A DNA stretch of 64,000 nt from the NCBI GenBank assembly GCA_014380615.1, contig JACMJM010000012.1, positions 1 to 64,000 of the forward strand, given 5' to 3'. How positions within the stretch are numbered: the stretch's first letter is position 1; each line of letters starts with the position of its first letter. The notes under the pieces are model-generated. The model worked only from the letters and a program-made list of their open reading frames with translations, was not told the DNA's origin and ran no database searches. This DNA comes from Sphingobacteriaceae bacterium (GTDB lineage Bacteria > Bacteroidota > Bacteroidia > Sphingobacteriales > Sphingobacteriaceae). Of this stretch, positions 13,911 through 53,527 are shown in pieces. A program made the translations under genes and the position numbers.

Positions 13911-14361
13911 TGGATGTATAGTTTTGACAACTTTTAAAAGTTGTCAAAGTTTATTCTTCAATTCATGAAAATAGAACTAAACAAGTACATAAGAAAGAGC
14001 ATATCCGAATGGGAAGGTATTGCACACGCGACACGCATAAGTCATCAAGGGTGCGAAATGAAATATAGATTTAAATTTTTAAAGTGCTACGGACAGATAC
14101 GCTGTGAAACCATAATACATTGTTGATTGGTGCCTTCTTGGAATATATAAGTTAGGAGATAACTGTTACAGTGTTTTTGTACTTTGATTATCCGCACAAC
14201 TTATGGTTCAGATAAGAAAAAAAATCTTACTTTCGGCTACAAAATCGCCACAGCTACTTGTTTACCCTATTCTATTTTCTCTCTCTCGATGATGCGTTTT
14301 TTAAATTCATAGCTATTGCCTTTTTTGATATACTGAACCCTAAACTTCTTTCACAATCTTA
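13911..14361. other. 451-bp stretch without a supported gene
   Basis: Apart from the palindrome at 13923-13948 the stretch holds only short reading frames. One at 13965-14126 (53 codons) has no recognisable motif. Its AT-rich end probably holds the former promoter of the decayed NHL-type gene. It looks like decaying DNA. Confidence 0.5.
13923..13948. repeat. TTTGACAACTTTT palindrome, copy 1
   Basis: TTTGACAACTTTT is followed directly by its reverse complement, a perfect 26-bp palindrome. Related copies lie at 14958-14990 and 37285-37313. It may serve as a bidirectional terminator for the DUF4293 gene. Confidence 0.85.
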
Positions 14362-14923: not shown

Positions 14924-14957
14924 AGCATTAGATTAGTTTCGTGTTTTTCGTGTTTTC

Positions 14958-14990
14958 AGCTTTGACAACTTTTTAAAAGTTGTCAAAGCT
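14958..14990. repeat. TTTGACAACTTTT palindrome, copy 2
   Basis: The arms AGCTTTGACAACTTTT and AAAAGTTGTCAAAGCT are perfect 16-bp reverse complements around a single T. The core is the same as in the copy at 13923-13948. Confidence 0.85.
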
Positions 14991-15215: not shown

Positions 15216-17081
15216 ATGAACCCATTTAGTACCTTGGGTATCCGTCATGATATTGTTAATGCCATAGCTGAATTAGGATTCGAAAATCCTACACCAATCC
15301 AGGAACAAGCAATCCCGGTATTACTTTCAGGCAGCAACGATTTTGTCGGATTAGCTCAAACAGGAACCGGTAAGACGGCAGCATTTGGCCTGCCTCTATT
15401 AGAATTACTGGACTTTGAAAAGAATCACCCTCAGGCACTTATTCTGTGCCCAACCCGCGAACTTTGTTTACAGATCACTAACGACATAAACAACTACGCG
15501 AAAAATGTTAAAAATGTTAATGTAGTTGCCGTTTACGGTGGTGCGAACATCTCTGACCAATTACGTCAAATAAGACGTGGTGTGCAGATTGTAGTGGCAA
15601 CCCCAGGCCGTATGTTAGATATTATCAACCGCAAAGCGATTGATTTTTCTGAAGTACGTTACGTTGTATTAGACGAAGCGGATGAAATGCTCAATATGGG
15701 CTTTCAGGAAGACATTGACCAGATTTTATCGACCACTCCGGAAGATAAAAAAACCTGGTTGTTTTCTGCTACCATGCCTACAGAAGTTAGGCGGATTGCC
15801 AAAAAATACATGGACAATCCTTTCGAGCTTACCATGGGTACCAAAAATACTGGTAACGTTAATATCGACCACGAGTATTATGTGGTTCGTGCCCGTGATA
15901 AATATGCTGCGTTTAAACGTATTGTAGATTTTAATCCTGAGATTTTTGGTATCGTGTTTTGCCGTACTAAAATCGAAACTCAAGACATTGCTGAGTCTTT
16001 AATTAAAGACGGTTACAATGCTGATGCTTTGCACGGAGATTTGTCTCAGCAACAGCGCGATAAAGTAATGAAACGCTACCGTGAACGTAGTTTGCAACTG
16101 TTGATTGCTACCGATGTTGCGGCTAGAGGTATTGACGTTAATGACGTTACTCACGTTATCAATTACTCATTGCCTGATGAGATTGAAAATTATACTCACC
16201 GAAGTGGCCGTACGGCTCGTGCTGGTAAGTCTGGTGTTTCTATCTCAATTATCAACTCGAAAGAGGTTGGTAAGATCAGACAGATTGAGCGTATCATTGG
16301 TAAGAAATTTACTAAAGTTGAGATCCCTGGCGGATTTGACGTTTGTGAAAAACAGCTTTTTGCCCTGGTTCATAAAGTACATAATGTGGAGGTTAATACT
16401 GAGCAAATTGAGCAGTATATTCCTCGTATTATGGACGAGTTTAAGGATTTAAGTAAAGAAGAAGTGATAACACGTTTTGCTTCACTTGAATTTAATCGTT
16501 TCCTTGATTATTATCAAAATGCGCCTGATCTGAATGCTCCAGCTGATGATCGTGGTGACCGTGGTGAGCGGACTGAAAGAGGCGAACGCGGTGAAAGAGG
16601 AGAACGTTCAAGCCGCTTTGGTAGCGGACGAGGAGATTACACTCGTTTCTTTATCAACCTTGGCTCTGTAGATGATTTTACCCGTGGCGATATGCTTGGT
16701 TTTATCTGTAACAATGGCAAAATTAGTGGTAAAGCTGTCGGGAAAATTGATCTGAAAGGTGTTTTTACTTTTTTTGAAGTTGAAAACGACCAGTCAGAGG
16801 CGATTCAGCAGAGTTTTAAAGGCGTAGAATTTAACGGCCGTGCGGTAAGAATTGAACTTGCCGGCGATCGTGATGGCGGAAGCCGTGAACGCAGCGGTGG
16901 CGGTGGCTACTCTGGTGGCGGCCGTCGTGAAGGCGGTGGCGGTCGTGAGCGTAGCGGTGGTAGTGGCGGCGGCGGTTTCCGTGATTTCTCAGGAAAAAAA
17001 CGTGAGGAAAGAAGCGGTGGTTATAGTGGCGGCGGTGCCGGACGCAGCAGAGAAGGCGGAGAGAGAAGGAGGCGGTCTTAG
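15216..17081 (+). CDS. DEAD-box ATP-dependent RNA helicase (DeaD/CsdA-like)
   Basis: A 621-residue RNA helicase. The RecA-like core shows the Q motif (GFENPTPIQEQAIP, residues 21-34), motif I AQTGTGKT (47-54), PTREL, TPGR, DEAD (about 152), SAT, ATDVAARGID and HRSGRTARAG. A DbpA-type RNA-binding domain follows near residues 468-550 (FFINLGSVDDFTRGDMLGF). The last 70 residues are an Arg/Gly/Ser-rich tail. The layout fits helicases of ribosome assembly and cold adaptation. The stop codon overlaps the start of a palindromic element that is related to the insert in pheS. Confidence 0.93.
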   Translation: MNPFSTLGIRHDIVNAIAELGFENPTPIQEQAIPVLLSGSNDFVGLAQTGTGKTAAFGLPLLELLDFEKNHPQALILCPTRELCLQITNDINNYAKNVKNVNVVAVYGGANISDQLRQIRRGVQIVVATPGRMLDIINRKAIDFSEVRYVVLDEADEMLNMGFQEDIDQILSTTPEDKKTWLFSATMPTEVRRIAKKYMDNPFELTMGTKNTGNVNIDHEYYVVRARDKYAAFKRIVDFNPEIFGIVFCRTKIETQDIAESLIKDGYNADALHGDLSQQQRDKVMKRYRERSLQLLIATDVAARGIDVNDVTHVINYSLPDEIENYTHRSGRTARAGKSGVSISIINSKEVGKIRQIERIIGKKFTKVEIPGGFDVCEKQLFALVHKVHNVEVNTEQIEQYIPRIMDEFKDLSKEEVITRFASLEFNRFLDYYQNAPDLNAPADDRGDRGERTERGERGERGERSSRFGSGRGDYTRFFINLGSVDDFTRGDMLGFICNNGKISGKAVGKIDLKGVFTFFEVENDQSEAIQQSFKGVEFNGRAVRIELAGDRDGGSRERSGGGGYSGGGRREGGGGRERSGGSGGGGFRDFSGKKREERSGGYSGGGAGRSREGGERRRRS

Positions 17082-17268
17082 CCTCACCAAGTCTCCCTCT
17101 CCAAAGGAGAGGGAGACTTGGTGCCTATATACATAGCCTAAATGTTATAATGTAAAGTGCCCTGCAAACAGCAGGGCACTTCTTTTGAAATGTGTTTTCG
17201 ATAATTTAATCTGGCGCTCAACTAAGGCGTCATATCCCTCTCCGAAGGAGAGGGATCAAGGGTGAGGC
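17081..17268. repeat. Composite palindromic element between the helicase and small membrane protein genes
   Basis: The stretch begins GCCTCACC and ends GGTGAGGC. Inside are an 18-bp hairpin with three-base loop at 17085-17123 (CACCAAGTCTCCCTCTCC arm) and a 10-bp hairpin at 17234-17256 (ATCCCTCTCC arm). The same CCCTCTCC...GGAGAGGG hairpins and GCCTCA-type ends occur in the element inside pheS (52856-52983). Confidence 0.75.
17155..17181 (+). terminator. Terminator after the RNA helicase gene
   Basis: AAGTGCCCTGC and GCAGGGCACTT form a perfect 11-bp stem with a five-base loop, followed by CTTTTG. It lies about 75 bases past the helicase stop and may also serve the convergent gene. Confidence 0.75.
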
Positions 17269-37121: not shown

Positions 37122-37284
37122 GGTTCAATTATAAAAAAGCAAAGTACAGAATAATTATACAGAATGCCTTATGGAGGAAGCACAAACTGGCGGCGAATTT
37201 TTATCGTTTTCTGGCAGACAGGGATATTGGTTCGGTGATTTTCAAATTAACAATTTTAAACGTTGGAACTTTCAAGTTTGACAA

Positions 37285-37313
37285 CTTTGACAACTTTTAG
37301 AAAGTTGTTAAAG
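37285..37313. repeat. TTTGACAACTTT palindrome, copy 3
   Basis: CTTTGACAACTTT and AAAGTTGTTAAAG form the arms around TAG with one mismatch. An additional partial unit, TTTGACAACTTTGACAAC, begins at 37277. The core matches the copies at 13923 and 14958. Confidence 0.75.
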
Positions 37314-52387: not shown

Positions 52388-53527
52388 ATGCAAGAGAAGA
52401 TCAATTTATATACAGCTGAAATTAAATCTTTTGTTCCCCAAAACGCCGAAGAGCTGGAGACTTTCAGAATTAAATTTTTAGGTTCAAAAGGGATTATTAA
52501 AGATATTTTTGACGAATTTAAATCTGTTACACCCGAAGAAAAACGGACACTTGGGAAAGTACTGAATGAATTTAAGGTTCTTGCTGAGCAAACTTATCAA
52601 TCGTTTAAAGATAACATCGAATCACAAACGGTAACTAGCGGTTCTCAACTGGATGCCACGCTTCCTGGGGATGGCTTTGAACTTGGCTCACGTCATCCTT
52701 TATCGCTTGTACGAAAAGAGATCATCGAAATTTTTAAGAAACTCGGATTCTCTGTTGCGGAAGGGCCTGAAATTGAAGACGACTGGCATAACTTCTCTGC
52801 ATTGAATTTTCCGCCCGAGCATCCTGCGCGAGATATGCAGGATACTTTTTTTGTGGCCTCAGCCCGGCCCTCTCCAAAAGAGAGGGAGTCGTACGCCACA
52901 AATGATGCTCAAAACAACCTCTCCGAAGGAGAGAAAGAAATTATGCCCCCCCTCTCCCCCGGGAGAGGGGCCGGGGCTGAGGCTTTTGCACTGCGTACCC
53001 ACACTTCATCAGTACAGGTGAGGATGATGGAAAACGGAAAGCCGCCTTTTCGCGCTTTAATGCCCGGAAGGGTTTATCGGAATGAAGCGATTTCCGCACG
53101 TGCGCATTGCTTCTTTCATCAGGTTGAAGGATTATATGTAGATGAAAATGTTTCATTCGCCGATTTAAAGCAAACTCTTTTCTATTTTGTACAGGAACTT
53201 TTTGGCGAAGGAACTAAGGTTCGTTTCCGCCCTTCATATTTCCCTTTCACAGAACCATCCGCCGAAATGGATATTTCCTGCAGTATCTGCAAAGGTGGCG
53301 GGTGCCAAATGTGTAAGCAAAGCGGATGGGTAGAGATACTGGGTTGCGGGATGGTAGATCCTAACGTTTTGGAAAACTGCGGGATCGACGGAACAAAATT
53401 CACGGGTTTTGCGTTCGGTATGGGGATAGAGCGTATTACCAATTTGAAATATCAGATACGGGATTTACGTTTATTCTCTGAAAATGATATTCGTTTTCTT
53501 AAACAGTTTCAGTCTGAATTGATTTGA
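52388..53527 (+). CDS. pheS: Phenylalanine-tRNA ligase subunit alpha with in-frame insert
   Basis: PheS, 379 residues, the catalytic subunit of the alpha2-beta2 enzyme that attaches Phe to tRNA. The N-terminal coiled coil is followed by class II motifs: the segment ending QDTFFV near residue 155, LRTHTSSVQVRMM near residues 202-214, and GCGMVDPNVLENCGID and GFAFGMGIERI near the C-terminus. Residues about 157-199 (ARPSPKERES ... LSPGRGAGAEA) are encoded by a palindromic element and have no counterpart in family members; without them the protein has the usual length of about 336. The frame stays open, and an inactive essential gene is not likely. Confidence 0.93.
   Translation: MQEKINLYTAEIKSFVPQNAEELETFRIKFLGSKGIIKDIFDEFKSVTPEEKRTLGKVLNEFKVLAEQTYQSFKDNIESQTVTSGSQLDATLPGDGFELGSRHPLSLVRKEIIEIFKKLGFSVAEGPEIEDDWHNFSALNFPPEHPARDMQDTFFVASARPSPKERESYATNDAQNNLSEGEKEIMPPLSPGRGAGAEAFALRTHTSSVQVRMMENGKPPFRALMPGRVYRNEAISARAHCFFHQVEGLYVDENVSFADLKQTLFYFVQELFGEGTKVRFRPSYFPFTEPSAEMDISCSICKGGGCQMCKQSGWVEILGCGMVDPNVLENCGIDGTKFTGFAFGMGIERITNLKYQIRDLRLFSENDIRFLKQFQSELI
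52856..52983. repeat. Palindromic element inserted in pheS
   Basis: The 128-bp segment begins GCCTCAGCCCGGCCC and ends GGCCGGGGCTGAGGC, near-perfect terminal inverted repeats of about 20 bp. Inside are small hairpins CCCTCTCC/GAGAGGG (52868-52886), CCTCTCC/GGAGAG (52918-52933) and CCCCTCTCCC/GGGAGAGGGG (52949-52970). It stays in the pheS frame. The same hairpins occur at 17085-17123 and 17234-17256. Confidence 0.8.

Follow-up and report, generated by a model that had tools for sequence, protein, structure and literature searches.

We analysed a palindromic element that lies in frame within pheS, the gene for the phenylalanine–tRNA ligase alpha subunit, in a 64,000-nucleotide stretch of a Sphingobacteriaceae bacterium genome (contig JACMJM010000012.1, positions 1 to 64,000; hereafter the window). 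The host gene occupies 52388–53527 on the forward strand and encodes 379 residues, and its identity was established by the family model TIGR00468 (321.9 bits against a cut-off of 237.45) and by alignment to solved PheS. The element spans 128 bp (52856–52983, +), encodes residues ~157–199 of PheS and carries no nuclease. It begins with a left hairpin unit, GCCTCAGCCCGGCCCTCTCCAAAAGAGAGGGAG (52856–52890, +), and ends with an inverted right unit (52946–52983, −). These matched R1, a covariance model described below, at 49 bits (E 3.5e-8) and 34.3 bits (E 3.3e-5), respectively, both units being among the 14 used to build that model. Between them, a small middle hairpin, CTCTCCGAAGGAGAG (52919–52933, +), was indicated by the single-strand fold and by a weak unit-core match (14.6 bits, E 0.34). 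The single-stranded fold of the whole element reached −29.1 kcal/mol, whereas shuffled sequences averaged −17.8 (sd 2.6), which gives z −4.3; none of 200 shuffles was as good. The original prediction, made from the letters of the window, had described an in-frame palindromic element here with near-perfect inverted ends and three hairpins of CTCTCC type, and sequence, fold and R1 indeed recovered all of these. Rfam gave no match at E ≤ 1 across 52700–53100.

The insert lies where PheS normally has a short loop, as had also been foreseen: the gap between QDTFF and LRTHTS measures two to four residues in the aligned solved proteins 3pco and 4p71, and the native loop of G001, the sole genome of the same genus compared, reads IKKDAENGDIA in a PheS that is 93.4% identical outside the loop. 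A predicted PheS structure was discarded (mean pLDDT 46), and the position of the loop was taken from the alignment to solved PheS. When the DNA was compared with that of G001, 30 host nucleotides (encoding I K K D A E N G D I) had been swapped for 135, namely the left junction codon GTG (52853–52855, +; ATA in G001), the 128-bp element and the right junction TTTT (52984–52987, +), which is followed by GCA CTG CGT. The net change is +105 nt, or 35 codons, and the frame is kept; the earlier argument that host bases must have been lost, since 128 is not a multiple of three, was thus borne out.

Comparison with related PheS, as the original prediction had proposed, indicated that the insert is not limited to this species. 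A database protein, P0001 (88.9% identical), carries a loop homologous to that of the window over its full length (alignment score 82, matched by none of 500 shuffles), which makes an assembly error at this position, named beforehand as a possible refutation, unlikely and implies that the insert predates the species. The closest PheS proteins come by source name from Sphingobacteriaceae, Pedobacter and Daejeonella, in keeping with a bacteroidotal genome. The native loop is present in G001 and P0003, both closer than P0001, and this pattern of presence would require that the insert was gained several times or lost through the exchange of alleles. In the PheS tree described below, insert-bearing and native-loop proteins are interleaved among the close relatives of this genome, which suggests that pheS alleles may have been exchanged among relatives.

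The two pheS units are members of a hairpin-unit family, GCCTCACCCCGGCCCTCTCCnnnGGAGAGGGAG, with units of 35 nt scattered through the genome. R1 has 35 positions and was built from 14 aligned units of this genome, the pheS ones included, most of which were picked by a pattern containing the end GC[CT]TCA. All 14 bear the GCCTCA end; some weaker units of this genome start otherwise, none of them by eye with GTAG or CGTC. As a result of the genome-wide search that had been suggested for the element, R1 gave 26 matches at E ≤ 1, two of which are reverse readings of the hairpins near 17 kb, leaving 24 units in genes and spacers, three of them weak (E 0.015–0.11). Counted from coordinates, they occupy 20 places, four of which hold inverted pairs. 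One such pair is intergenic, at 17081–17117 (+) and 17232–17268 (−), with R1 E-values of 1.9e-7 and 1.1e-6, in agreement with the relation to the pheS insert that had been proposed for this spacer. The pair brackets a terminator-like stem. It starts on the final nucleotide of the TAG stop codon that closes the upstream gene, which is DEAD-box-helicase-like with a long Gly/Arg-rich tail. The window also holds a second palindromic repeat family, of GACAACTTTTTAAAAGTTGTC type (13918–13949, 14957–14988 and 37273–37313), which is unrelated to the CCTCTCC units and has a similar palindrome in L019.

Units lie internally and in frame in five genes of this genome, pheS, leuS, metH, argC and an argF-like gene (N-acyl-ornithine carbamoyltransferase), whose identities are backed by family models and alignments to solved structures; in murC (L073), a unit lies upstream of the conserved domain only. 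The inserts measure 128 bp in pheS and ~96 bp in leuS, and metH, argC and the argF-like gene carry single units. In G001, G047 and G007, the argF-like gene, argC, leuS and metH are without the unit, the metH loop of G047 being different and longer, and in each of these four genes the unit appears to replace some host codons. The encoded peptides come from several frames (ASPxPSPKERE, SLSxGEGRGEA, PSPxERAGVRP and SLTPALSKGEG).

We then examined the PheS loop across relatives. Among 61 genomes of the family, this one included, 59 were readable at PheS, and the 8 with at least 25 residues between DTFF and THTS are richer in units (Mann–Whitney p 3.2e-4, with pheS units counted and kinship ignored). 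In a list of 120 PheS homologues, biased because the query carried the insert, 54 loops exceed the usual length of 21. A quick tree of 189 rows was computed with the loop excluded and with SH-aLRT support only; its 44 rows with loops of at least 20 residues require 18 changes, and a minimum of 8 gains or losses is imposed by branches with support of 95 or higher. Peptides from several unit frames occur at this place (ASPQPSPKE, SLTPALSKGEG, RLTPDPSPGGEG and SLSPGEGRGEA), and the pheS DNA of G026, G043 and G053 holds hairpin pieces with differing junctions (R1 E 0.023, 0.011 and 0.015). When 53 long PheS loops from the database were scanned with regular expressions, 12 gave strict unit peptides (0.2% in shuffles) and the other 41 were decayed or unrelated; no strict peptide was detected in the genome-derived loops, including those of the window, G026 and G043, whose DNA shows units. 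The PheS loop is a repeat target for insertion.

Long loops of 26–55 residues are retained in 25 of the 28 rows of one supported PheS clade, which would agree with a selected insertion that adds a synthetase function, the palindrome being secondary. However, these loops differ freely in both length and sequence, close sisters repeatedly show the native form and unrelated enzymes contain the loop peptides as well, and we therefore regard such selection as very improbable. Among 80 listed PheS loci of genome contigs, four exceed 23 residues between DTFF and THTS (L165, L211, L221 and L230), and none of these showed a unit-like peptide by eye. Two of them, from Hymenobacter (L211 and L221, with 39 and 42 residues), indicate that this loop also tolerates sequence other than this element.

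At E ≤ 0.01, R1 found units in 38 of the 100 genomes searched, among them this one. From the listed rows we hand-picked 40 unit loci of G026 (16), G053 (5), G043 (9) and G003 (10), 8 of which lie inside long frames. leuS occurs twice among these hosts, in G026 at the loop shared with this genome and in G053 at another loop, and the others are AspS-like, MurD-like (at the N-terminus), FecR-like (two cases), an Lhr-like helicase and a Type ISP specificity domain. For L278, L281 and L307, where the unit pattern was unmatched, a default window was used, so that L281, one of the FecR-like cases, is weaker. G086 gave 65 unit matches, the best at E 6.5e-4, and thus probably holds a diverged sub-family.

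A search with the LeuRS of this genome, insert included, retrieved relatives with the Pfam domain DUF559 (Vsr-like) inside LeuRS. Their loop before VFTTR contains, in order, a unit peptide, ~115 residues of DUF559 and an inverted unit peptide. Among 120 listed LeuRS, a list skewed towards inserts, this first loop carries the nuclease in 28, a unit peptide without nuclease in 49, the native short form in 8 and other sequences in 35; the site is thus occupied in some relatives and empty in others. Unit peptides stand on both sides in 24 of the 28 nuclease-bearing proteins, and DF..EVDG is kept in all 28 (shuffled controls ≤0.35%). One 1229-residue LeuRS (P0155) has two DUF559 nucleases, one at each of two LeuRS sites. 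The fold of DUF559 in these relatives' elements, which the pheS copy lacks, matches the homing endonuclease I-Bth0305I (solved relative 3r3p), and the candidate active-site residues are invariant in 23 of 23 aligned sequences. In this genome, the leuS insert, SLIPDAIKKKLEESEDRKVLSFGEDLGEA, consists of a left GCCTCA end, a stretch resembling the C-terminal tail of the nuclease and a right unit, and it has 42 identical nucleotides in common with the nuclease-bearing insert of L313, from another family. Short elements would arise by deletion of the nuclease, and this leuS insert is the clearest sign of such an origin.

Furthermore, Pfam placed DUF559 in host frames of HsdR (L308), MetH (L309), LeuRS at two sites (L311 and L313; L321) and a MeaB–methylmalonyl-CoA mutase (L318 and L319), with both units clear in the LeuRS and mutase cases and one clear unit in HsdR and MetH. 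Other hosts, judged by motifs in the flanking residues, we take to be RecG-, RecJ-, SpoIIE- and CaiB-like; for RecG and RecJ, which likewise have one clear unit, this is probable. DUF559 also stands N-terminal to HisF in one open frame in four genomes including this one, as assigned by Pfam for L324 (C29:82135–82452) and L325 and by flanking residues for L312 and L315. In a tree of 71 DUF559 rows, same-site copies mostly cluster (14 changes, against 35.6 when shuffled), supported branches nevertheless require two or more changes both for LeuRS site 1 and for LeuRS site 2, and copies from the mutase nest among those of LeuRS site 1 (support 94). This is what would be given by mostly site-faithful spread with occasional jumps, in a tree that few columns resolve.

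At the DNA level, 56 of the 100 genomes, this one among them, gave a DUF559 match, as did five phage records, all below 60% identity. A unit lies within 250 bp (E ≤ 0.1) at 17 of 30 listed DUF559 loci, and an inverted pair of units at 12 of them (L310, L311, L313, L316, L317, L318, L319, L321, L322, L326, L328 and L332), four of these 12 outside long frames. In L313, L318 and L321, respectively, the paired elements are about 430, 464 and 507 bp long. Among 20 more loci, from large open frames or this genome, L341, L343, L344 and L350 have a pair at E ≤ 0.1, and L339, L342, L345 and L348 a one-sided unit, L345 repeating L337. Hairpin units might instead have spread passively, copied by replication slippage or template switching without a dedicated enzyme and piling up in tolerant loops; the many partnerless single units of this genome would fit, as would the use of several reading frames, by which no one peptide is favoured. 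The order of unit, nuclease and unit at the 12 paired loci and the invariant candidate active site argue otherwise, and we consider such passive copying distinctly unlikely.

Another explanation is that the units are of the repetitive extragenic palindromic (REP) type and are moved in trans by a Y1/HUH transposase (REP-associated tyrosine transposase, RAYT), the DUF559 frame being a passenger caught between two units. All 14 element-rich genomes (at least 9 units; this genome included) have a Y1_Tnp match, and within the family, genomes with more Y1 matches also tend to have more units (rho 0.64, kinship ignored). The RAYT-like genes of this genome carry YIHNNP, which fits the YIH[QN]NP subclass, the other motif being SHVH here versus NH[LIV]H there; that subclass is mainly from Bacteroidetes and its genes are flanked by atypical hairpins (PMC6006769). 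At class level, however, Y1 shows no correlation with units, and among the Y1 genes examined, no unit was found at E ≤ 1 in 20 stretches of seven element-rich genomes (Fisher 1.3e-5 versus the DUF559 loci, the two sets coming from partly different genomes) or at five of the seven loci of this genome. We thus consider transposase-driven movement unlikely.

Several observations nonetheless weigh against a nuclease-borne origin. Besides the within-family Y1 correlation, the element-rich genomes match Y1 in 14 of 14 cases and DUF559 in 13, and 6 of the 38 unit-bearing genomes have no DUF559 match, G018 with its 9 units among them. At 13 of the 30 DUF559 loci no unit lies within 250 bp, and the DUF559 genes of this genome have no clear adjoining unit (E 0.64 at L324, none at L353 and L354). 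Simple homing does not explain the single-unit insertions in the argF-like gene, argC and metH. In addition, no PheS with DUF559 appeared among the 120 proteins listed for a chimeric PheS–DUF559 query (8000 candidates sharing most words scored), in which such a protein would be expected near the top, so that the link to the pheS insert rests on the shared ends.

These points notwithstanding, the pheS insert is probably a copy without nuclease from a family of elements that, in their full-length form in related genomes, carry a DUF559 frame between inverted GCCTCA hairpin ends and lie in frame in other enzymes. The sequences themselves display the shared ends, the dispersed copies, the native sites in relatives, the nuclease-bearing and nuclease-less versions at one LeuRS loop and the nuclease-tail-like leuS copy, and we infer that the element is homing-like and splicing-free. 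Being translated within the host polypeptide, the nuclease would cleave alleles that lack the insert and, on occasion, other sites, whereupon repair of the break would install a copy of the element. Surviving copies would be those that keep the frame and lie in a tolerant surface loop; in-frame deletions would later remove the nuclease, and the palindromic units left behind would erode into ordinary loop sequence, which has probably happened in the Pelobium/Pedobacter PheS clade. The pheS insert, as one of many, would be best explained by such a family of in-frame homing-like elements, intein-like without splicing.

We give about an even chance to the broader proposal that Bacteroidota carry splicing-free intein analogues, in which Vsr-like homing nucleases with palindromic ends would form permanent translated loops in essential enzymes (LeuRS, MetH, probably RecG/RecJ, and others), and the scattered CCTCTCC palindromes, including that of pheS, would be their dead, nuclease-less descendants. 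Publications on these elements were not found in the open-licence PMC literature, which is no proof of absence. If the proposal is true, homing-like nucleases invade essential genes without an intron or intein, a tolerant loop and an in-frame element being sufficient, and the proposal would explain where protein-coding palindromes come from, a question raised by the Rickettsia elements. It would also tie a DUF family to a lifestyle and provide a route by which selfish DNA lengthens the loops of essential enzymes. Since nuclease-bearing and nuclease-less stages occur at one LeuRS loop in related bacteria, the proposal is directly testable.

Among known systems, inteins are likewise in-frame, nuclease-bearing inserts in conserved enzymes. 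The insert here would, in contrast, stay in the mature protein: no splicing domain was seen in the nuclease-bearing host enzymes, and Pfam listed no intein/Hint domain at E ≤ 1e-5 in nine host frames, no dedicated intein search having been made. The EDxHD or Vsr-like homing endonucleases such as I-Bth0305I share the nuclease fold, similar conserved residues and the occupation of the same conserved-gene sites in different genera (PMC3943268), whereas 3r3p is named a mobile intron protein and the nuclease here forms part of the host enzyme's reading frame. For REPs and REPINs, including intragenic GTAG/CGTC REPs, palindromic units, inverted pairs and intragenic copies are known (PMC3733652). The present family resembles them in its palindromic units of 20–40 nt, inverted pairs and intragenic copies, but its ends are GCCTCA instead of the GTAG/CGTC tag, no unit adjoins the tyrosine transposases examined (0/20 and 0/5), and the units are linked to a Vsr-like nuclease. 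Rickettsia palindromic elements (RPEs), to which the original prediction had likened the insert, are described in PMC10969869 as short palindromic DNA translated in frame in unrelated genes. The likeness holds in part, in that palindromes, of up to 128 bp here and of ~150 bp in RPEs, enter unrelated protein genes in frame in both cases. It fails in that RPEs encode one conserved peptide per family, whereas these units, from Bacteroidota, encode no such peptide, use several frames and both orientations and are linked to a nuclease-bearing full-length form. The original prediction had not anticipated the repeated targeting of the PheS loop, the hits in leuS and further enzymes, the multiple frames or the enclosed nuclease. 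Since the same inverted ends enclose DUF559 in relatives, a homing-like nuclease element is a better reference for the pheS insert than RPEs alone.
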